Source: Monosporascus cannonballus
Lineage: Eukaryota; Ascomycota; Sordariomycetes; Xylariales
DNA: 64,000 bases
Direction of reading: 5' to 3'
Assembly: GCA_004154925.1 (NCBI GenBank)
Contig: QJNS01000132.1
Coordinates: forward strand, 124,001 to 188,000
Below are positions 28,062-42,615 of this stretch, in pieces; positions within the stretch are counted from its first letter, which is position 1, and each line of letters begins with the position of its first letter. The notes under the pieces were generated by a model that worked only from the letters and a program-made list of their open reading frames with translations, had not been told where the DNA came from and searched no databases. Position numbers and translations under genes: made by a program.

Positions 28062-28453
28062 TCAAACTGTAGACACAACGTCGCGATGGGTATGCGGACA
28101 TTGGGGTTGAGTTTTGGCTGACGAACCCCGGCCCTGGGCGAAAAGCCACGGCAGGTCTTTAGTCAAATTAAAGAGCGCCCCCAGGACCACCAGGCCGAAC
28201 GCGCACATGGGCCCTAGAATGGCAAAGGCGGTAAAGCCGTACGACGCCCGCTGGAAATCGGCGTCGTCCCGGAGCCGCTCCGTAGCGAGGCCCACCTGCA
28301 TTGCCGTCAGCACCACGACGATAAAAACGGTGGCGGAGGCCATCCAGGCGAGGTTATCGCGGAAGAGGCCGCCGTAGTTGCGCCAGCCGCGCAGGTACGG
28401 GTCGAAGGGCGGGAAGCGAGTAACGCGGTTGATGGTGTTGATGCGGGAGAGGC
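28062..28453 (-). pseudogene. DUF6601-like membrane protein, 3' part, split by hAT
   Basis: About 130 C-terminal residues of a fungal integral membrane protein. The sequence SRINTINRVTRFPPFDPYLR, then a DNLAW segment and a hydrophobic helix (ATVFIVVVLTAMQVGLA), then YGFTAFAILGPM with a second hydrophobic helix, resembles the C-terminal half of the DUF6601 family as I recall it. The first codons are cut at 28453 by the hAT terminus. Reading on from 38459 leftward across the single 8-bp duplication restores one open frame (ELRLS|RINTI). Function of the family is unknown. The gene cannot make its normal product here. Confidence 0.72.
28446..28453. repeat. left 8-bp target duplication of hAT
   Basis: GGAGAGGC, repeated exactly at 38452-38459. 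Eight base pairs is the duplication length of the hAT superfamily. Confidence 0.92.
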
Positions 28454-28580
28454 TAGGGTTTGCAATGGGTACCCATTGGGTACCCACCCATGGGTGGTCT
28501 TGGAATTTTTTTCGAAATTACCCACGACTACCCACTTACGAACTACCTACCTACCGGTACCTATTGGGTAAAAATCATAA
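28454..28580. repeat. left terminal region of hAT
   Basis: TAGGGTTTGCAATGGGTACC at the very end, then several GGTACCCA/CCCATGGG palindromic units. It is much less mutated than the interior. Confidence 0.8.
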
Positions 28581-31500
28581 TAACGTCAGAATATAACGAA
28601 TTAAAGGTTATATTTATTTTAAAAATAAGATTATTATTAAAGGCGTATTAATTCCCGTATTAATTTATGTAATAATCGCCCTGCTTTATAAATTAAGCAA
28701 AATTAATTACGAATTTGTTAATTTGGCCAAATTATTTAATTTATTATATTTTATAAACTAAACGAATGTATATTTGGGAGAAAATTATTTACGAAAGCCT
28801 TAGGGGCAATCGGAAAAACTTTCGGGATGTATATTAATGTTACTGCCAATTTTATTTTTCGCCTAGAAGCCGAACGAAAAGCGGCTTTTTCGAGCTATTA
28901 CGTTATTGTATTATTCCAGAGCCAAGCCGGGCCGGGAAAATAAGGCGATTAAAACTTACGAAGCTTACGGGTATTATAACCGAAGGAAATTATTTTTTTT
29001 AATATTTCGGTAACCGTAAGCTGAAAATACGAAGGCATTTTTGAAAAGTAACTAAAACGACGAAATTTATATTTCAAATTAGGGCGAAAAAAATGGGTTA
29101 ATACGAAAATTAATACGTTAATAAAATAAATAATTAATTTACCGGAACCTGTAGGACCGGCGGCGTAATTTGAATTTATCCGTTACCTACGGAAAATTTT
29201 TTTTTAAGTTATAATATCGGAAGGTTAAAATTTAATAAAATTAACCAAAAGTTTTTTTTGTTATCCGCTATTTAAAAATAAACATTAACAAAATTACAAA
29301 AATAATAAAAAATGGAGGTTACCCAAATGTTATTTATTTTTTCGGTACGGAAAAAATCAAGGATATCCAGTTTAATTTCGGATATTAAGTTTTTATTACG
29401 TAAATAATAAAAGTTTTATCGGGGTTTATAATATAAGGTTTATAAAAGTTTTTAAAAAAATTTAACTTAATAAATATAAACATAATATAATTAATATTAT
29501 AAAATTAAGTTAATAACGAATGTGCGTATTAATTTACGTATTAATTAATTTACCGTTTGCCGTTATTTAACGAAAATATCATAATTTTTATGTTTTAACG
29601 AAAACGTTTTCCGTCCGGTATATTTTACGATTACGTCGGTAATTATTTTGGCAAAACGTTTCGCAAATAATAAAAATAACGAATTAAAATGTAAGTTAAG
29701 CTTAAGCTTACGACCAAATATTTAAAAAATTATTTGATAATATATAATAAGGTAAAGGATAAAAAATATATTAAAAATTTATTTTTTTAACATTTAATAT
29801 TATAACGTTAAATCTATCCGAAATAAGTATTAATAATTTGGGAAACTTTTCGGCCATAATATATACCGTATTATTAATTATTAACGTTAATTTATTTTCG
29901 AACTTTTGGAAATAAAGGTAACGGTAATCTATATTATCTTATTGTAATAAGGCGATTTATTTATTTTTCGATAATTTGTTTTCGAGAATAAATTCTTATT
30001 TTTTGTTAACGGACGTTTATGGAAAATTATTATTTAAATTAAGAAATTTATAAAATAATTAATCCGAATCGTTTATAATTGTTTTCGCCGCGCCAGAACG
30101 TAATTTAAGGTCGATATTATATTAAGTTATAAGTTATTTAAGATATTTATTCTATAAGTAATTAAAAACGATTAATATAAAGATTAATATGTTACCAAAA
30201 GCAGAACTTATAATAAATTATTGGCGGTATCGATAATTTTTCGGTGGGCTTTATTTTAGATAATAGGGTCCGGTTCGGGGTACTTTTTATCCCAAGCCGT
30301 TTTATTACGGCAAATTTTGGTTCGTAATATTTACTGGGCGTTTTTTACGGCCTTTTTATTGGGATTTTCGCGAAGGAGTTTTTTGTTGCGTTTCCGTGTT
30401 TTTGCAGTATTTTTATTATTTGAAAGCGCGTTGTTAGGTTTATAACGTTTGTAAAAAAGTTTACCGCCGTTTTTTTCGAAAGCCGATATTATGTTAAATA
30501 TAATAAGATATCGATTAATACGGAAATTAATACGCGTTATGTTAGGAATACGGGCATATTTATACCTTTAATTAATAATTGCGATATAAAGAAAAAAATA
30601 TTTTTTGTTAAACATAATATTTATTTTAAATTAATTATAAATATCAAAATTAATATCGTATTATTAATACGATTAAAAATATAAAAAAATTAAAGTAAAT
30701 ACTTTGTTATTTAATAAAAATATACTAAAAACGAGATTTGGTATTTAATTAATGAATTAGGAAGAAGTAAGTAAATATATATATAATTCCTTATTAAAAT
30801 AAAAAAATTTAATTAAATTTTAAATAATTTTTGGGATAAAAAAATAACTTAATATTTATTATATAATATTAAAGAAAAAACGTAAGCCTATTTATATATA
30901 AATTTATTAAATAAAACGGAAATCCTTTATATAAATAATAATTTTTTTCGTATAAATCGTATATAAGTTATTATTAATAAATAACGTAACCAATTTATTT
31001 TCCGCCGTTTCTTATAATACTTTTAAAATAAACTGCTAAATTTTAAAATCGTTACTCGGTTACTTATTTTATAAGATCTTCCGTATTACAAACTTAAAAC
31101 GGTATTTTGGTATTAACGAGATAAAAAAATTTTAAAACTGCTTAATTTCTTATAACGCCATAACTTTTTAAAATTAACTGCGTACTAATTAATATATTAA
31201 TCTGGAAATATAACTTATTACTAGGTTTAAAACGGCGTTACCGGATCTATATTTTAGCCTTTATTTTTTGTAACTGGCGATTACGAATATTTTGCTTTAG
31301 GATTCGCTTTTGCCCAGTAACTTTCTGTTTAAATATGAAACCGGTTAATAATTACTACCGGGATAATTTAATAATTTTCGTAATTCGGATTTCCGGGGTA
31401 AGAATTTCGTTATTCAAAGGAATAAATATAAGATTAAGATTAATAATAAAAATAACGGATAAATCCGTAAAAAAATTAATCCTTACGTTATTACGGTTAT

Positions 31501-32880
31501 TTAGGGTTTTTTTATAATATTATTTAATAAGCGATAAGGAAATATAATTTTATTTATAGGGAAAAGTATTTCGGCTATATAAAATTCCAAAAAAAGTTTA
31601 AAAAAATAAAAGAAATCGCAAAATGTATTCGAAAAATCCGGAAAAAAAGAAGCGTTATAAATATAGGCCGGATAATAAATAATCTGCTTATTAATACCTT
31701 TTTAAAAGGTACGTATTTAGCGTATTACCTTATTCTGGCCTTAATTTTATATATCCGCCCGTATTAATTTTGAATTTTCGGCGTAATAATCGTATTACGG
31801 TTATTTTAATAATATAATTTATAATATAATTTTAATATTATCCGAAATTAATCTTATAATATAACGCCCTTTTTTATTAATTTTTTAATTAAGTTATTAC
31901 CGACGAAAAAAATTATGGGTTAGGCTTATTTGAGTAAAAAGCTTTCGACAAAATAAAGAAATAATTACGGAAATTAAGTAATACCTTATATAACGAAAAT
32001 GAGATCGAAAACAAAGGTAAAGGCGTATTTAAATTTGGGAAATAACCGAACGTTAAAAACGAATTTAAAAATAATTACATATTTAAAGAAACAAATTATT
32101 AAGAAAGAAATAACGACGAATCAAGAAACGAATTTATTTAGGGAAACGAAAAAGATTTTGATAAATCGGGTAACGAATTAGGTAATAAATATAGCAAAAA
32201 AGCTAGGCCTTTAACTGAATAACGGTTAAGCTCGTTATTTTATAATAACGGATAAAAAGGTAACGAATTACTTTTACGTTTCGGTATTTTAACATATTAT
32301 ATTTATAAAACGGAAAACGCCGAAACGTTTAAAGCGTAATTTATGCGGCGGCCGTAATTTTAAGAAAAAGCCGCCTTTAACGAAAATACAAATAAGGTAC
32401 TTTTTAAGAAAATTTTCGTTTTCCGTTAAACGTCTTAATATTAACAAGATTGGTTCCAGAACGTAACCTTAGAAATGGGTTAATTAATAATAATCTGTAA
32501 AATTTGTTATAAAACCCGGATATATCCGAAATCGAATAAGAATAATAATAATATTATTGCGTTAAGGAATTATATAAATAATAGGATATGCGAAAAAAGA
32601 AAATAAGTTCGAAATAAGAAAACGTAAGGCGTTACAAATTTTATTATAAGTCGAATTTTTTGGTACGTATTAATCGTTATACTAATTATCGTATTAATCG
32701 TAGTTTTAATAATATCTGTTTTAGGCGGCCGGAATTTTATCGGAAAATAATCGTTTTTGGGTTAAAATATAAATTAGCTTATATATATTTTTTTACTTTG
32801 TCGAAAATCCGTATTTTATTAATTGGGTACGGTATATATGCCTTATTTATATTTTTCTAAAATCCCGTACGTTTAAAGAT
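28581..32880. other. AT-rich hAT interior without identifiable gene
   Basis: Stop-laden, TA-rich sequence. Inverted copies of the terminal decamer (GCGTATTAAT 28642-28651, CCGTATTAAT 28655-28664) lie near its left end and related ATTAATACG motifs recur near 29525 and 30511. A minus-strand stretch near 30290-30430 reads as a basic polypeptide (KTRKRNKKLLRENPNKKA) with few stops, but I cannot place it in a family. The 5' part of the transposase gene may begin within 31900-32880. Confidence 0.4.
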
Positions 32881-32952
32881 AAATGCGAAAAATACGCCGA
32901 AAAGGTTATACGTTTGGAGTTGCAAGATATATTTCCCGAATCTTACGTTTCG

Positions 32953-34316
32953 GTTACCTCAGCTAGCTTAAACCTCTGCTGGCTCGTTTCTATTTTGGAT
33001 ATACTTTTATGTATTACGCCAAGGCGCTAAAATTAACCAATCAAATAGCGTATCCCCGTAACGAACTAGCGAGGTCTAAGTTGGAGTTGCGCAAAAACTC
33101 TTTCGTTCTGTACTTTTCTTTATAAAATAACCTATTTTTTTTATTTTTGCAACCAATTTAAATCGAATAATTTTTATTTTTTTAATATACGTTAAATAAA
33201 AGCTTTTACGCATATAGGAAATTTTTCAAATTTTTTCGATAAAGATTAGGGTTAATATAGTTAAGTTGAAATTTAGGAAATTTACCGACCGTAACGTTTT
33301 TATGGCTGCGAAAGCGCAAATACCGCGTACATCATTTTGTTATGGGCCGTCTAAGGGTAATTCAGCATGGGAAAGCCCGTCCAGTTATGCTTTTGCCCGT
33401 ACGGGCTGTCGTTATTGCGTCGCAGCTATGAAAAGGTTGGGGGTAACCAAATCCGGAACGCCCTTATGGCTGTAACATAACCAGTTTAAGTCCGGTAAAT
33501 CTAATACTTAATATATCCAGGAGATATAAATTAATATATATATAGGAATTTTTTCAATTTGTTTGGGTTAAAATTAAGGCCGATACGGCTAAATTTAGGT
33601 CTGGGAAATGGGCGACCGTAACACCCTTACAGTTACGATAGCATAACTACCGGTCGCATTATCGTGCGCCGGGTTTCCCTAATATATTTAATATGGGAAA
33701 AACCCGTCCAGCAATTTTTTTGCCCGTACGGATTGTCGTTATTGCGTCGCAGCCATAAAAAAGTTGGGGGCAGCCAAATCCGGGACGCCTTTATGGCTGC
33801 GACATAGCAACCATAACCCATACGGACAAAAGCATAGCCAAACGGGCTTTTCCCATACTGAATTACCTTTAGAAGGCCCATAACAAAATGTTATATACGG
33901 TGGGCGCGTTATCGCGGCCGTAAGGGCGTTCCGGTTAGAAGGTATGCACTAATCCAAAATTTTCATTTTCTTTTTTTAATATCTTTACTAATTTAACCCC
34001 GATATGGAAATTATATATACGGTTTAAAAGCTTTTTTAAAACTTTATATAATATTAATTTCTGTTATTTTTTCCATTATTTTTTATTATTATTTTATTTG
34101 CAAATTTTCAAAATAACTTTTGAAAAATTTATATAGAAACGTACCAAACGGAGCTAAAAAATCACAATTTGTTATCAGGCCTTATTTTGGAGGATTTGTT
34201 ATTTTTTGTAGGGTTTTCCAAATTTGGTTAGCGTGGTACTAAAAGCTACTTAGCCATAGCTGCGCCGTAGGCGCAGCCGCAACCTTTAACATAGGGCCTG
34301 ATTCTAATGAGGTAAC
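32953..34316. mobile_element. family X copy 2, 1.36 kb, probably non-autonomous
   Basis: The ends GTTACCTCAGCTAGC and (reverse complement) GTTACCTCATTAGAATC share GTTACCTCA, and a perfect 6-bp target duplication GTTTCG flanks them (32947-32952, 34317-34322). Its left about 130 bp and right about 190 bp match family X copy 1; the interior differs and consists largely of a fold-back repeat. It carries no plausible coding region, so movement would need a transposase in trans. It lies inside the hAT transposase gene and so arrived after the hAT element existed. Confidence 0.8.
33330..33900. repeat. fold-back repeat inside family X copy 2
   Basis: A block beginning TGTTATGGGCC at 33337 and running to about 33470 recurs inverted at about 33780-33890, and part of it (CCCGTCCAGCAAT..., TTGCCCGTACGG, GTCGTTATTGCGTCGCAGCC) recurs in direct orientation at about 33700-33800. 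The copies share the phrase GCCCGTACGG-CTGTCGTTATTG. The arrangement permits a long stem-loop. Confidence 0.65.
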
Positions 34317-36100
34317 GTTTCGGTAATTACCGACGTTTGGACGTCCCTTAGCTTAGCATATATTTTCCAAAACGTATATATGTATTTTATCGATAAAAAT
34401 TGAATATTTAAAAACGTTTTAATTAATATCCAACTATATAAGAATAAAAAGGGAAAGTCAAATACTTAAAAATTGTACGAAGTATTAAAGAAGTACGGGC
34501 TGTATATAAAAATTTAAGTTATTATAGCAGATAGCGGAATAAATTTCGGTATGAAATATTTTAAAAAATGCATGAAAAAAGATAAGCAAAAAAAAAGTAG
34601 AAAAACGAAACGAATTATTTCCATTATTTTATACATTTTTTACAAAATATTTTCAAACGTTTTTTTAAATGGTTAAAAGTTACAAATAACGCAAAAATAA
34701 AAGATAAAGCGGGCTTAAAGGTAAAAAAGGACGATAAAAAAAGCCAAAATTAAGCAAATTAAGCTTAATACGGCTGATCGTATTATAAAAGGGGTATGTT
34801 AACCTGTTATTTCGTTAATAGCGTTATATTTATTTTCGTATTAATTTTTTAGCCGTTTTAAATTAGATAATTTACGACGTATTTTAATTTTAGCATAAAA
34901 CGCCAGTAACAATTTAAGTATATATAAAATAATTTTAAAAAAAAGGGTATCCTAAATATTTAAAAACTATTATAGGTTATTCGAAACGTAAAAAGTCGTT
35001 GGAATTCCGTGGTATATATGCTTGTCCGGATTCGTCGATTAAGATCTGCATTCGAAAATTATATATGCCGGGAAAAAATAAATAACTTCGAAATTACGGA
35101 AACCACTTAGGATATTATCGATTACTTGATCAACATTTATAAGCCGTTCCTTTTGTTAACGAATCTTTTTGGCGTTTCGAAAAAAACGAATTACAGCTAT
35201 GTTTTTGCTAGGTTTAAAACTATAAAAAAATATTTTCGCAAATGCGAAACTTATTTATAAAATCGAATTTTTGCTAGTTCCCCCTAATCCTATTTTGAAA
35301 GATTATTTTAAGCCGTTCAGAATTATTCGGAATTTTATTAGCGCTATATCGATAAAGCTTTTCGAAATAATAAGTATTATTTTATTTTCGTAATATTTTT
35401 ATATCCTTTGTCGGATTCGAAAACGGAATTTTATTTCGATAAATGGAAAACGTTTTTAAGATAATCGTTTACAGACGATTTCTTTCGTAATAAAGCGATT
35501 CGTTATTTTAAAAATGCTTATAAGTCTTATTACGAAAAGTATGGAAATAACGCGGCGAAATTACCTAACAAATAGTATGTTAATCGAAACCTATCGGAAA
35601 TCATAACCGAAAATATTAAAACTCCTAATAAGATATTTATTTTCTTGCCCTTTTTTATTTTATTTTATTTTTATTTCTATACGTTTATATTAACATTTAA
35701 AAGGTATTTCTTTAGGTATATCAGTTTCCGACGACGGTCGGCCTTAGGAAAAAATTATCGATTATTACCTGGAAATACGTAAGCATATAAACTTTAATAT
35801 AAGGATTAATACGCTGATTAATATATAAGTTTGCCCCCTTAGATATTTTTGCATTTTGGCGTAAAATTAAAATGTTATTCCCTAGGCTGGCCGTATTCGC
35901 TCGTAACTACCTTTATATTTAAGCCGTTACTGTACTGATAAAGCGAATATGGAATTAGGCTAAGTTAATTTATTCGTATAACCGTTCCGAATTAACGTAC
36001 CTTATATTCCAAATTAGCTTCCTTATCGTATCCCATTTGCGAAATAGGTTAAAAGATTTATTACTTGACGTCTGATACGACTGTACGAAAAACGACAAAC

Positions 36101-37073
36101 TTATTCATATTACGGAACGTCAACAAAAAAAAATTAAAGAAATTTTTCATACGAAATTTTCGGAAAAATAAGATTTGAACGTTACCTTTCTTACTGCTAC
36201 TATCAGTAAAATTAACAAATCTTAATCCTTTTCCTAATCCGGTTCCTAAATTGCTATACCTTAAGTTAATCCAGGAATAATACCGAATACAATTAATTTC
36301 TTACCGAAATAGCAAATCTATAATAAGATTACCGTACAGCAGGAATCCGACCTACCGTTACCTTTAGTTAATTCATACGCCAAAGGGCAAATAAAAATTA
36401 AAAACGCTATAATTAAATCGATAAGGAAACGGGAAAAAAAAGTTCATAATAATTTTGAAAAAATTATTATAACTTTTTCGAAAGCATATATTAATAAGAA
36501 GTAAACGTATTATTAGTTAATTTGTACATTATTAAGTAATAAAATTAATTAAATTTAATTCGTTATAATTTATTTCAATTTATAATTTTTTAAATACATT
36601 TTTATTATTATATTTTATTTACATATTTTATTTTACTTTATTTTATTTTATTTTATTTTATTATATTTTTAATTATATTTATTTTTATTTATTTTTATAT
36701 GTTTTAATAATTTTTATATATTTTATTATATGTTTTTTTATTATATACGTATATAAAATTTTAAACTAATAAAATTGTTTTGAAAAAAGTGGACCTATAA
36801 ATAAGTTGTTTAAATTACCGTAATGCCTTTACCTCGTTTTAATTATTTAATATATAACATATTACAAATTTTTGCGCGGTCGTATTTTGGTGTAATTATA
36901 CGTCCCGGTTAATTTTAATTAATTAATTTCGATTTTGATATTACTTTTTAAATACGACAAATAATTTTTTAATTATGGCGCGTTTAAAAACTTATAAGTT
37001 AACACTTACTAATTAACGTATTAATCCGCGTATTAATCGATATATTAATTTTTATTCAGATTAACGCGTATAA
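36101..37073. other. AT-rich spacer between transposase and histone-like gene
   Basis: No gene recognised. Includes a run of ATTTTATTTTATTTTA repeats (about 36640-36700) and CGTATTAAT-type motifs at about 37017-37050, which resemble the subterminal motifs of the element. Confidence 0.4.
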
Positions 37074-37986
37074 TTGCAAATTAAAAACGTCAAAGGCAGA
37101 TACCCACCTTAAGGCAAAGGTACGGCTACAGGCAAAGGCATAATTAAACCGAAAGCCAAAAAAACCCCTATGGAGACAACCGGTAACATCAAAAAGCCTA
37201 AACGATGGAAGCCCGGTAATAAGTATATCAGGCCTTATTAGTTTTTTTTTTGTTTTCTTTTTTTTTCATTAATTTTGGTTTTTTTCGCTTAAGCCATTAT
37301 ATTTCGAAAAATCCGCAGGTATCAGAAAAATACCAGTCTTATAATATCTAAGGCCCCATTTTAACGTTTTGTATGCGAAATTATTTAAGGTTTGCCTGGC
37401 GGAATAAATTTACGATGCCAGCGGTTAACTATAGAAGCTTTATAAAAAATAAGCGAAGCTGTTTTTACTACCCTTTTTACTAATATATCCACGTTAGCAA
37501 TATACGTATTAGTTTACGTACTAATCGTTTATAACCGCCAATTTATGTTACATCTATAGCAAACGCGTTACGTTAATAATTAAAGATATAAAACTAATTT
37601 ACCATGTGACGGGCATGATAGCATCTATAGGTCCTATAGGTTTGCCGGATTACGGCGTTACCGGATAAACGTTATACGAAATTCCAAAAAAACGCAAAAC
37701 CAAAAAAGCCAAACGAAAAGCAGCCCGAAACAAAGCAAAATAAAAGCAGCTGGAAAAAGCTTGCGTGCAACAAGATAAGCTGTATTATATACAACGAAAA
37801 AAAAGGTTTATCCGCCAGCGGCAGGCTAAGGAGCACGAGCAAGCCGTACTGCAAAACCTAAATAAGCTATATAAAGAACTGAATATCCCGCTGAATTTCG
37901 ATTCAGAAATAACTAAACAGGACAACCAGCTAAAGCCGGACGAACAAGTAAAGCAGGACAACCTGCTAAAGCAGGACGAGCCGTAA
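37074..37986 (+). pseudogene. histone H3-fold (CenH3-like) gene with C-terminal extension
   Basis: Three exons can be read. Exon 1 (about 37074-37215) gives a Lys-rich tail ending KKPKRWKP, like KKPHRYKPG of H3. Exon 2 (37294-37482) gives FRKIRRYQKNTSLIISKAPF, the alpha-N/alpha-1 region, then QGLPGGINLRCQ as loop 1, two residues longer than in canonical H3, then TIEAL.KISEAVFTTLF (alpha-2). Exon 3 (37535-37986) gives ANLCYIYSKRVTLIIKDIKL (loop 2, alpha-3). The same frame then runs on for about 120 codons into a basic, Gln/Lys-rich segment (IPKKRKTKKAKRKAARNKAK, RQRQAKEHEQAVLQNLNKLY) with KQDNQLKPDEQ-type repeats. Four or five in-frame stops fit CAA/CAG-to-TAA/TAG. Intron 2 has ATATAT and TATAA where GTATAT and TATAG would be expected. 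Function is inferred only: a chromatin protein carried by the transposon. Confidence 0.8.
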
Positions 37987-38280
37987 AAATATTAATATAC
38001 GATTAATACGGCTTCGCATAAGGGAATTCTGGTTACCCCGATTAATATTCGGATTAATACGGCCCTGCATACGGCAATTATAAATACCCCGATTAATACG
38101 GCGTTACGTTCATAAAAATAATAATTAGGGCCAAACATAACAATTAAATATTCCTAATTTAAGTATTAATACTTTAAAAAGTACTTCATAAAATATAGCC
38201 TAATATTATATACGTTTTTTATCTTTATAAGGATTAATTTATTTATACTAATATAATAAATATTTAAGTTAAAAATAAGT
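37987..38280. repeat. right subterminal repeats of hAT
   Basis: Three copies of ATTAATACGG (38002-38011, 38053-38062, 38092-38101), each within CGATTAATACGGC-like context, in the orientation opposite to those at the left end. The spacing and placement suit binding sites for the hAT transposase, but this is inference. Confidence 0.55.
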
Positions 38281-38451
38281 ACCCATAAATGGTTAACCAT
38301 TTAGCATTTTGGGTATCTACGGGTGATTAGTCCGTGGGTGGTTTCAGTCTACCCACGCACCCCTGCTACCCACCCGTGGGTGGTTAGCGGGTCTCCGTGG
38401 GTACTCGTGGGTGGAAATTTTAGCGTGGGTGGGTGGGTAATGCAAACCCTA
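38281..38451. repeat. right terminal region of hAT
   Basis: GC-rich end with many CCCACCC/GTGGGTGG units and the terminus TGCAAACCCTA. It is the inverted counterpart of 28454-28580 and little mutated. Confidence 0.8.
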
Positions 38452-38507
38452 GGAGAGGCGGAGCTCGGCGCGCAGGAAGCGCGGGTGGACCTTGTTCGGT
38501 TCGTGGC
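38452..38507 (-). pseudogene. DUF6601-like gene, remaining 5' codons
   Basis: The minus strand reads NKVHPRFLRAELRLS directly up to the hAT duplication and joins in frame to the 3' part at 28453. VHPRFLRAELRLSR is characteristic of this fungal family as I recall it. Upstream of about 38507 I find no continuation; either an exon boundary lies there (CAG at about 38520) or the N-terminal half has been lost. Confidence 0.65.
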
Positions 38508-38923: not shown

Positions 38924-39487
38924 CTAGATGCTTTCACTGACACTGTCTCGGTGAATGGGCACTAGAGCTGTGAAAACCCCGAGTAGTATAGTTCCTCCTT
39001 CAATAGAATGATAGTTTTCGACAGCTGCAAGATGGACCATCATATCAAATGGCATTTCCAAGCCCGATCCCCACTGTCGCCAAGTGAGATACCACGCAAC
39101 AACTCCAGAGTGGAAGAGGTGCGTCCAACAGTAAGTGCTTGGTCCGGTGTCATCGGATGAAGAACCATACAGCAGCTCAAGAATATGCCCTAGGAGCTGC
39201 GGCTCAGCACCTTCAATTTGGATATCCTTGATAATTTTCGAGATCTGAATCTTGTCGGTTTGGGCCGTGGTCGTGCCGTTTGGATGTGGCCTCACTCCTG
39301 CACAAACACAGGTCATTGATTCGATAAATGACTGTGTATCGTAATATGTGCTCTCTAAGCAAACGAGGCCGACGGTACCGCCTGTATAGTCGCTTGCAAA
39401 ATGCACAATAAGGTTTTTCGGCGATGGACACCAGGTTGCTCTGTCGGAATCCGGGGTTTCCGGCAAATCAAACCCCTTATGAAACAC
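38924..39487 (-). CDS. orphan fungal protein, 187 aa
   Basis: A single open frame starting MFHKGFDLPETPDSD. It is GC-balanced with no RIP damage. No signal peptide or membrane helix is evident; a central region has VGLVCLESTYYDTQSF and the C-terminal half a Trp-rich stretch (WTHLFHSGVVAWYLTWRQW). I do not recognise the family. It lies 387 bp downstream of the subtilisin gene on the same strand and could be a neighbour of the same immune locus. The 3' end may include a further exon, because the in-frame stop is followed closely by an intron-like donor. Confidence 0.5.
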   Translation of the reverse strand: MFHKGFDLPETPDSDRATWCPSPKNLIVHFASDYTGGTVGLVCLESTYYDTQSFIESMTCVCAGVRPHPNGTTTAQTDKIQISKIIKDIQIEGAEPQLLGHILELLYGSSSDDTGPSTYCWTHLFHSGVVAWYLTWRQWGSGLEMPFDMMVHLAAVENYHSIEGGTILLGVFTALVPIHRDSVSESI

Positions 39488-39496
39488 CTTTCATAC

Positions 39497-39531
39497 ACTT
39501 CCGTTATCCATCCTTGAATAATAACGGAAGT
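39497..39531. repeat. inverted repeat upstream of the orphan gene
   Basis: ACTTCCGTTAT (39497-39507) and ATAACGGAAGT (39521-39531) are perfect 11-bp inverted copies with a 13-bp loop, just before the start of the 38924-39487 gene. It could be a dimeric protein-binding site. Confidence 0.5.
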
Positions 39532-39721
39532 AATGGATTAACAACCAATCTGCTTAAATCATAAGGTTATTCACGAATATATATAGCCCAACATCCCCCA
39601 GGCTGTTGCAAGAAGTCCATAGCTTTGATATAGCATCAACATACACACCTTGAGATCTTCCCTATTCTTCATTGAGACCTTCCCCATATACTTTTGCTGG
39701 CAAAAGTCTCCTCGCGTCCTT

Positions 39722-39752
39722 CAGGGTAGCCTCACCTTCTGTCGCCAATTCT
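39722..39752 (+). repeat. short fragment of the copia LTR end
   Basis: CAGGGTAGCCTCACCTTCTG plus TC..CAATTC is the inverse of the left end of the copia LTR at 42616-42655, differing at only a few positions, and it is not RIP-mutated. The rest of the LTR is absent. Confidence 0.5.
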
Positions 39753-39874
39753 TACATGCTCCTCTTACGATATATGTTACTTAATGTGCCCTATCTGTCA
39801 ATAGCCACGGCTGGAGAAACATTCGAACACCAGTTGTAAAACAACCGACCAGTTCGCATTCAAAACTTGATCAC
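39753..39874. other. 3' flank of the subtilisin gene
   Basis: Short GC-balanced spacer; no motif I can assign. Confidence 0.4.
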
Positions 39875-42615
39875 TCACCCCATCCCAATAATAAATTCGA
39901 GGATCTTACAAATATTCTTCGGATCACCCTGGTCCATATCCTTCAGACCTTCCCATTTGCCCTTAAGTGCTATGTCCCATAAAGACCAGGGCTGAACGTA
40001 ATGACAATACCCAGTCTGAGCAGACATAGCGGCGAAGATCTTCTTCACCCCATCATGAGAGAAGAAGCGATCTCTTCTCCGCTTCGGCATACACAGCTTT
40101 TGCTTCGCAAATTCCAAAACATTGGCGGCGATCCCAGCCGCGATGGGCGTTGCGAAAGACGTCCCGGAGATGTAACGGTGTTCCCACTCCCCTGGTTTGT
40201 CGTCACACGGCCACTTGATATCTCGGCCTAAAGTGGCAAAAATCATGTCATTTGGGTTGCGGCCGAGTGGAGGATTGAAATTCGCAGGAGATCCTAGCCA
40301 GTCCGTCGCATGAATCGCAATGATACCGGGCTTTCGAGCTGGCCAGGCTTTCGGCCTGTTGCCACCCCTGTTATGCCCTGCTGCCGCGAAGATGATCTTC
40401 CCTGAGGCATCTTTACATTCTGGATCCAGGGCATGGTGGAGCGCCTGATCGATACTGTCATCTTCGTCCGCAAGCGCCAACGACATGGTGATAATGTCAA
40501 CTCTCCAGTCTTGGACCGCATAATTGATAGCCTGTAAGTGTCGTATGAGTTCTGTAATGATATTGTCTTAAAGAGAGCGGCAAGGAGGGAGAGAGGTAAT
40601 CAACCCACATTCGCAATGTGGAATAGCTCACGCTTCGGAATCCACCTCGCGTTGGAGACTTTGGCAATATAGAGCTCGGCTTCTGGGGCTACACGTAACA
40701 GCAGATCGGCAACCATGGTGCCGTGACCAATTTCATCAAGCCAGTCCTTGTGATTGTGCGATGCGAAGTTGCGGCAGTCTACTATTCTTTTCGCTTCAAG
40801 ATAACCGTCAATGCGTGTATCATCTTTTCTAACTCCACTATCGATGACGGCCACTCGAATCCTCCCAGTCTCGGACTTTGACGTGGTTGCACCTCCGGCG
40901 GATTCCGGGCGGCAAATATGTTTCTCCGTGTATTTGTTCATTTCCTTCCAGAACTCAGCGTCTCGGGAACTATTGAAACAATTGTTAATCGGAACAAGGA
41001 GATTATCCATAATTTTATTCTTAGAGTGGGATGTACCTCTCGCTCCGTGGTTTATCGTGGACGTCTTCGTCTTCATCGTAAATGGATACTAATTGGCAAT
41101 TGGCGTCTGGAGCGGCGTCCTCTGCAGCCCTGGTTGAACCACTCGACGAGATGGGTCTGGGCGGATCAGGGTGTCCATGATATGCATCAAGAGGCAGTAC
41201 AATCTTTTGGAAAATGTAGGCTTGAAACTTGCCGGGATTGCAGTGATCACGGCTCTCGTCTAGACCGGCGCTATCCAAACACGCGTTGACTGCGTCAGCG
41301 AAATATTTATCACATGGCCTGAAGTAGTCTTTAGCAAATGCCGAGAGAGACGAGCGAAACTTTTCTTTGTCCGTCTGCCTCAGGGATTCAAGGTTGTGGG
41401 GAAGGCTTTCCCACCGGTGTATCTCAATGAGAAGCTGGGCGAAATCCAGTAGCTGAGGCTCGCAGCGTAATTCATTGTCAGAGTCGTCACCAGCCATGCT
41501 TGCCAAGTCGTTTCGAAGGTGCCAGGAAAGGTAGGGATTGGTTTTGTCGAGTATTTTGTGAGTACCAGGGTCTTCGAGGAAGAGTATTCCCGAATTCCTG
41601 TCTTTCGAGTACCATCTCAGGCTTCTCCACCCGTCGTGAGATAGCTGGAGTAGAGACAGAGCTAGTATCAAGCATAGCTGATCCCTCTCTTTTGGGAGGA
41701 AATCTTGGGAGTTGTCCGGACCTTGCGTCCTGTTCCTCGATCCTCCCCTGAGCAACGCCTGCAAGGAAACTTTGGGAGACCTCCAATACTTAAGCTCATG
41801 ACAATGATCTAACTGAACTGGCCCTAACCGGTCGTCTTCCGCAGCTTTGGCCGTCATTATGGATTCCGACGTCCCGATCTCCTCGGGGAGCAATAGATTC
41901 AAGTTGGTATTCTTGTCTTTGGCATCCTGGATAATTTTACACCCGTATTGTAGGCTGCTCTTCAAACTCCTGTCGACGTGGATAATATCAGCAACACTCC
42001 CGAGGTACATGTACGGGGTAAGGGAACGGTGAACTCATAACATACTTCGAAATAACACACCTGCTCTCTAGCAAGTGAATCGGCTCCCAATCGTGGCGAG
42101 TCGACAAGTAGAGATCGAAGAAGTAACGTGAATCAATATCAATCTGATTAATAAAACCAGCTAATTTCAGTCTGGCGAGGTGGGTAGCTTTGCAGTCGCA
42201 GCGATCAAATTGTCGAACGAGACCCTTGAAAAGGGCCCGCAAGCACTTGCGAAGGCTTTCCTGTAACATCTCACGAGCATCGAGTTTGGAATCGACGAAA
42301 CCCCTATCTATTTCTAGATCCGATTCCGATGTGGACTGGTCCGTCGTCTCGTGCCTCCCAATCGCCCTTTCAATCGCTTCCCCAGCATCTCGGGCTATTG
42401 TAATAGCGTCACTATCATCCAGAGCCCCTCTAGAGCGAGAAACTGTCGAGAGTGACCTTGTGGTCATTCTTTGAACCTCCTCGATGCTATTGCCAATGTG
42501 TTCTTGAGTAGCCTCGGGTACGCCGTCACCATCGTTCCAATACTCCCGCGTCAGGCCTAATCCCAAGACGTCGACCGCGGCAAATACTGCGTAATTGTTT
42601 ATGGCCACATCGCGT
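39875..42615 (-). CDS. DUF7580-subtilisin (S8) effector-type protein, 5'-truncated
   Basis: Four exons are supported by GT..AG ends and phase: 42615-42046, 41996-41037, 40969-40609, 40531-39875 (introns 49, 67 and 77 nt), giving 848 residues. Residues about 1-500 are helical and contain LALSLLQLSHDGWRSLRWYS ... PYLSWHL, resembling DUF7580. Residues about 545-800 form a subtilisin domain with the complete triad: Asp553 (AVIDSG), His592 (GHGTMVADLL), Ser755 (SGTSFATPIAAG), and an Asn in AAAGHN. The frame has no ATG before the copia LTR at 42616 and stays open into it, so the true N-terminus is missing. Proteins of this architecture are encoded beside or fused to fungal NOD-like receptors, where the protease is thought to be the effector; that role is inference here. 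Confidence 0.8.

Follow-up and report, generated by a model that had tools for sequence, protein, structure and literature searches.

Two diverged histone H3-type genes in a hAT-type transposon of Monosporascus cannonballus

The analysed window, a stretch of 64,000 nucleotides of Monosporascus cannonballus DNA (contig QJNS01000132.1, 124,001-188,000), contains a complete hAT-type element of 9,998 bp (window positions 28454-38451) that shows RIP-like decay. The element contains two H3-type genes, H3-A and H3-B, which are divergent and located one on each side of the transposase, together with a further gene, gene 4. Judging from the sequences of this and related copies, it seems an evenly balanced proposition that this hAT-type transposon carries two diverged H3 genes, a transposase and a protein of ~506 amino acids as standard equipment, and that the histones are working genes. 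The features of the element are listed below; C90 is a sister copy.

28446..28453, no strand: target site duplication, left copy, GGAGAGGC, perfect, 8 bp
28454..38451, no strand: whole hAT-type element, GC 0.283, alignable with the C90 element over most of its length and at both ends
28454..28464, plus: terminal inverted repeat TAGGGTTTGCA, left end of the element
28736..30489, minus: gene 4, decayed; the C90 copy has five exons and encodes 506 aa
30853..31569, minus: H3-B, decayed; exons at 31219-31569 and 30853-31163 (two in all); the C90 copy encodes 237 aa
31852..36492, plus: hAT-type transposase, decayed and interrupted, with a Dimer_Tnp_hAT match
35836..36006, plus: C-terminal dimerisation domain of the hAT type (PF05699), scoring 24.5 bits against a cut-off of 21.4, 2 stops inside
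36975..37986, plus: H3-A, decayed, four exons (36975-36993, 37060-37215, 37294-37482 and 37535-37986); 264 aa in the C90 copy
38441..38451, minus: terminal inverted repeat TAGGGTTTGCA, right end of the element
38452..38459, no strand: target site duplication, right copy, GGAGAGGC, perfect, 8 bp

The terminal inverted repeats share 11 identical bases (TAGGGTTTGCA), and 15 of the first 20 bases agree. The dinucleotide indices of the element are RIP-like and its GC content is 0.283; the right flank has a GC content of 0.477, and the left flank is likewise AT-rich (0.249). The window element is a hAT-type transposon copy that was killed by RIP-like mutation. The hAT dimerisation domain was detected by a six-frame family search, which also found it in the C132 copy (26.6 bits, cut-off 21.4). 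An earlier note on this DNA had placed an H3 gene inside a hAT transposon, an assignment that is upheld by the 8-bp duplication, by the dimerisation-domain match above the cut-off and by many further copies. DUF659 (PF04937), the domain named for the hAT in the available text of PMC6710886, has no match in the M. cannonballus genome or in the control genomes. Approximately 1,370 bp within the transposase (32954-34324), with internal direct repeats (327-bp spacing) and inverted repeats, are absent from C90. Beside the insertion site, open frames with a GTSFATP motif lie on the minus strand in GC-normal DNA (38924-41088); from this motif, we take them to be subtilase-like.

The window copy of H3-A has 8 internal stops and has lost the GT of intron 1 and both the GT and the AG of intron 3. 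In a six-frame search of the whole genome (88.8 Mb in 618 contigs), the locus is matched by the Pfam histone profile above the curated cut-off (E 1.5e-6, 34.5 bits) with 3 TAA codons inside the match, and the peptides that had led the earlier note to call a histone H3-type gene are present in order. Two further features it described are also borne out: loop 1 is two residues longer than in canonical H3 (GLPGGINLR vs DFKSDLR in host H3), and the fold is followed by a basic Gln/Lys-rich C-terminal extension, which comprises ~120 residues in the window and, by our own division of the protein, 114 in the C90 copy. The gene model itself needs correction, as the note had read three exons from 37074 and overlooked a 19-nt first exon that starts at 36975. 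Similarly, its single H3 gene is real, but H3-B in the same element had escaped it. Loop 1 of H3-B is likewise two residues longer than that of host H3. A chance open reading frame at H3-A is ruled out by the Pfam match over the cut-off and by the many related copies. An ordinary host gene was also rejected: the host-like H3 (C110) and CenH3 (C5) genes sit elsewhere and have other introns.

The C90 element (L009:1189-9915, 8,727 bp) has open frames for H3-A, H3-B and gene 4. In this copy, the four-exon H3-A gene encodes a protein matched by PF00125 with E 5.7e-31 (107.8 bits), and the two-exon H3-B gene one matched with E 1.6e-24 (86.9 bits; cut-off 26.4 for both). The transposase of C90 is disrupted, with stops in the frame and a change of frame; its pieces have no Pfam hAT match and no PDB match up to E 10. 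Moreover, ~258 bp near the transposase end are missing in C90 and present in the C118, C570, C132 and C81 copies. No 8-bp duplication was found at the C90 copy, whose flanks differ. This broken transposase speaks against the view that the histones are working genes.

Gene 4 of C90, which is open over its five exons, encodes a protein with no Pfam match over the cut-off and no NCBIfam match. A large protein search scored 7,994 candidates, those sharing most words with the query, of which 2 matched, both from Monosporascus. An AlphaFold2 model of the protein (P0122) built from two sequences had a mean pLDDT of 38.6 and was set aside. A deposited protein of Monosporascus sp. MC13-8B (P0121) joins gene 4 of the element to a downstream host gene (L009, L039), which has a precomputed Pfam P450 match (PF00067). 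P0121 agrees with C90 gene 4 in four stretches at 99-100% and in a fifth, of 85 residues, at 54%, at the point at which the deposited model departs from gene 4; it agrees with the gene downstream of C90 gene 4 at 98.8% over 86 residues and at 48% over 77. The fusion is probably a gene-model error.

Elements of this kind are numerous in the genome. The six-frame matches comprise 112 for H3-A, 95 for H3-B and 121 for gene 4, most of them with stops; the 95 H3-B matches, together with all but one of the H3-A matches (111), merge into 112 gene places, a figure that includes weak cross-hits and host genes. Divergent A-B pairs within 9 kb number 21 and convergent pairs 0; the only two same-strand combinations are both on C24, between neighbouring elements. 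A second family, with loci such as C511 and C489 that are 81-85% identical to each other over their main blocks, shares with the first only a weak transposase similarity (43% over 47 residues). Its ends are TAGGGT(G/A)AGGG, and the C489 copy (150496-166178, including nested sequence) has an 8-bp duplication, ACTTTGCT. At C511, divergent B-type and A-type genes, recognized by weak matches of 35 and 30 bits, enclose a piece of transposase. In 8 family-2 or related loci, the sole match to gene 4 covers 15 residues (E 0.65).

The introns of these genes also recur. In both families, the coding sequence of the A-type genes is split by introns at two places, one between LF and NLC and the other immediately ahead of VALREI; the A-type intron within the fold is 49-52 nt long. 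The B-type intron lies at the second of these places. The family-2 introns were read by eye from decayed copies. As the A-type and B-type genes share the intron before VALREI, their sequences suggest that they are paralogues. When A and B were constrained to group in the tree, the likelihood rose by 5.97, and a constraint on the two B-types gave a rise of 6.58; with the A-types of the two families constrained to group, the score was 1.17 lower. The introns of host H3 and host CenH3 lie elsewhere, after PFQRL or FSRV and, in H3, also after TIQ. At C165 (L013:4115-4568), a canonical H3 fragment starts at VALREI, has an interruption at the host H3 intron place and adjoins a 169-bp stretch (96%) from the 5' region of H3-A, in inverted orientation.

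Selection on the histones was assessed from transversions, counted in the C90 reading frame, because RIP makes transitions only. Five copies were compared with C90, together with some further pairs; for each gene, the test draws in essence on a single divergence between subfamilies, within one genome. Between C90 and the window, the H3-A fold differs at 6/224 nonsynonymous and 7/47 synonymous positions (p 0.0023), and the H3-B fold at 13/264 and 11/48, respectively (p 0.0002). Summed over both folds, the counts are 19/488 (3.9%) nonsynonymous vs 18/95 (18.9%) synonymous; over both tails they are near neutral, at 95/632 (15.0%) vs 31/156 (19.9%). Since folds and tails agree in their synonymous rates, the difference lies in a lowered nonsynonymous rate in the folds. 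The H3-A fold gives a similar result between C118 and C90 (5/224 vs 7/47, p 0.0012), which is not independent because C118 has its H3-A in common with the window lineage; comparisons of the window H3-B fold with C118, C570 and C132 (p 0.0074, 0.0007 and 0.0011) again reflect one divergence. Within the C90 group, pairs have too few differences to inform and no constraint is visible, and over the whole of H3-A, C570 vs C90 points non-significantly in the reverse direction (35/624 vs 3/143, p 0.089). No significant constraint was detected on gene 4, with ratios of 0.50-0.90 for copies compared with C90. As judged from these substitution patterns, the histone folds of H3-A and H3-B are under constraint, and their tails change fast under little constraint. 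The C118 copy (L010) is a mosaic: its H3-B and the greater part of its transposase are close to those of C90, with 1.5-5.3% transversions per 400-bp block, but its H3-A tail is distant from that of C90 (22.5%), as is the H3-A tail of the window (25.2%).

That the folds look preserved by selection suggests that the element uses its own histones rather than bearing accidentally stolen cargo. The opposite reading, passive transduplication, holds that a host H3 was captured by chance, travels as cargo of no use to the element and is inactivated by RIP. It has been published for Pseudocercospora fijiensis and Pyrenophora (in the available text of PMC6710886 and PMC3538342), and both the stops in most copies described here and the lack of constraint among C90-group pairs agree with it. 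Nevertheless, we regard it as unlikely, as it does not lead one to expect constraint on both folds between subfamilies at a synonymous rate common to folds and tails, a divergent arrangement of the two genes that is fixed across two families, or introns where host H3 and CenH3 have none.

If the histones are indeed working genes, their tails may indicate what they do. The marks that silence transposons in fungi have histones as their substrate. Neither the H3-A nor the H3-B tail of C90, both of which are basic, contains an ARKS motif, of which host H3 has two. In the fold, H3-A, H3-B and the open family-2 B protein all retain R83, C110, H113, K115, R116, K122 and D123 (H3 numbering); R63 is replaced, and H3-B also lacks K64 and R69, which counts against a working histone role. 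The compared residues, from R63 to D123, are presumably nucleosome or histone contacts, and most of them are thus conserved. In active copies, H3-A and H3-B would be made as proteins, pair with host H4 and be incorporated into nucleosomes of the element or its vicinity. Since the open-copy tails lack ARKS (K9 and K27), such nucleosomes would be unable to carry H3K9 or H3K27 methylation, and the element, free of these silencing marks, would stay open for transcription and excision.

The element also contains short motifs that may be relevant to this mechanism. The C90 element contains 30 occurrences of GTACTAAT/ATTAGTAC, and its 1.27 kb of flanks contain 0; the introns of the three open genes, which total 493 bp, account for 14 of the 30, and the 3,030 bp of coding sequence of these genes for 0. 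The pair with a 12-bp period has 39 exact occurrences in the 88.8 Mb, of which the C90 element holds 9; the reversed control has 0. Such pairs in introns and non-coding parts may mark the sites from which a protein of the element starts this chromatin state. The 12-bp-period pair was not found in two family-2 loci tested; a different motif pair is shared by L018 and 7 of 8 family-2 loci and is present in 0 of 5 family-1 loci tested. The element-specific pair GTACTAATCNNCGTACTAAT is present in either orientation in nearly every intron of the C90 element and in its non-coding parts.

A bolder version of this proposal, which we advance tentatively and consider possible though somewhat improbable, is that a lineage of hATs, old and present in filamentous ascomycetes, runs its own two-histone chromatin: a divergent pair of H3 variants, kept by selection, would replace host H3 on the element, be unable to bear the K9/K27 silencing marks of the host and thereby shield the element from heterochromatin. 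The copies observed in the window lineage are all heavily mutated, so any shield against RIP works poorly. Alternatively, the histones might pack or bend the DNA or the ends of the element during transposition and leave silencing untouched. The element-specific motif pairs spread along the element and the basic tails would suit such a cofactor; the kept nucleosome-type residues, needless for a mere DNA-bending protein, make it a distinctly unlikely role.

The earlier note had further proposed that the captured H3 was of centromeric type, perhaps to target or evade a chromatin state such as AT-rich centromeric DNA; on this reading, the genes would come from a CenH3 and steer the element to centromeric chromatin. 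The longer loop 1 of H3-A and H3-B had pointed this way; however, it also occurs in several other alignment rows that are not fungal CenH3s, and loop 1 of the family-2 A-type is canonical, so that the feature is not CenH3-specific. The RWQ of fungal CenH3s at loop 1 is absent from both proteins. H3-A is nearer to host H3 (50/86 residues, 58%) than to host CenH3 (45/87, 52%), and H3-B is equally distant from them (46/87 and 47/88, 53% each). The best PDB matches of both are ordinary H3s. The best tree, built on 93 columns and with good support for 3 of its 44 inner branches, places neither protein with the CenH3s; on this weakly supported tree, the AU test did not reject such a grouping (p-AU 0.43 and 0.56), and with H3-B alone constrained to join the CenH3s the tree score was 2.09 higher. 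The protein searches were read over the best 120 of 821 matches for H3-A and of 5,864 for H3-B. Among the latter 120, many top rows are plant or Aspergillus/Penicillium proteins named CENH3 or CSE4; within both sets of 120, no name is termed transposon-borne and none is from Monosporascus. An H3 variant of Stromatinia cepivora (P0214, 139 aa) is 59% identical to H3-B in the fold (51/87) and has a short odd tail, KKKWRFKPG. Taken together, tree, identity and PDB ranking do not support a CenH3 origin of H3-A and H3-B, and even with the AU values, the loop length and the CENH3/CSE4 names in its favor, capture of a centromeric histone appears very improbable.

The suggestion that the element had reshaped its H3 is supported and extends further than proposed, to two genes with constraint on their folds. 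If the histones are working genes, a transposon with its own selected H3 variants would attack silencing at its base, and what the published cases read as harmless cargo would become a testable conflict between element and host. Such elements would also offer a natural series of H3 folds released from the tight constraint on host H3, and grounds to re-examine hundreds of "inactivated H3 copies" in other fungal genomes.

H3-carrying hATs with one or two H3-like copies are known from Dothideomycetes, where the available text reads them as passive capture (PMC6710886, PMC3538342). In P. fijiensis, 784 H3-like sequences were described in 471 hAT elements, one or two in each, and like elements in five other Mycosphaerellaceae; the H3 copies were read there as a captured intronless transcript without function (Dhillon et al. 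2019, PMC6710886). Second H3 copies with a 16-aa insertion were also described in that study (PMC6710886); as far as that description goes, the insertion would fit an unspliced intron of 49-52 nt, as in the A-type genes. In Pyrenophora tritici-repentis, a 5.6-kb hAT carries one H3-like gene, H3L (Manning et al. 2013, PMC3538342). In a full-text literature search, with preprints and most subscription papers outside its reach, PMC6710886 and PMC3538342 stood out among the listed results as descriptions of H3-carrying hATs, and a review (PMC8616336) contains the relevant terms; within these results, no such element from Sordariomycetes and no proposal that its histones are under selection came to light.

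The element described here differs from the histone genes of its host, with which it shares the histone fold (58% and 52% identity of H3-A, and 53% and 53% of H3-B, to the C110 H3 and the C5 CenH3, respectively), in its intron places and in the C-terminal extension of H3-A, which the host proteins lack, and host H3 differs in its two ARKS motifs. Compared by its published description, the Pyrenophora hAT similarly combines an H3-like gene with a further gene of unknown function, but it is 5.6 kb long, has a single H3-like gene and shows little RIP (PMC3538342). The Mycosphaerellaceae hAT, according to its description, is more alike, with ~9.5 kb, one or two H3-like genes (two in 9,998 bp here), an 8-bp duplication and hundreds of RIP-damaged copies; in contrast, its available text makes no mention of two separate lineages of the gene, of introns, of gene 4, of an open copy or of constraint (PMC6710886). 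As H3-carrying hATs had already been published in 2013 and 2019, the finding of the earlier note is not new in the form in which it was put: this kind of element is known, and the additions are a Sordariomycete host, a two-gene plan across families, an open copy and constraint on the histone folds.
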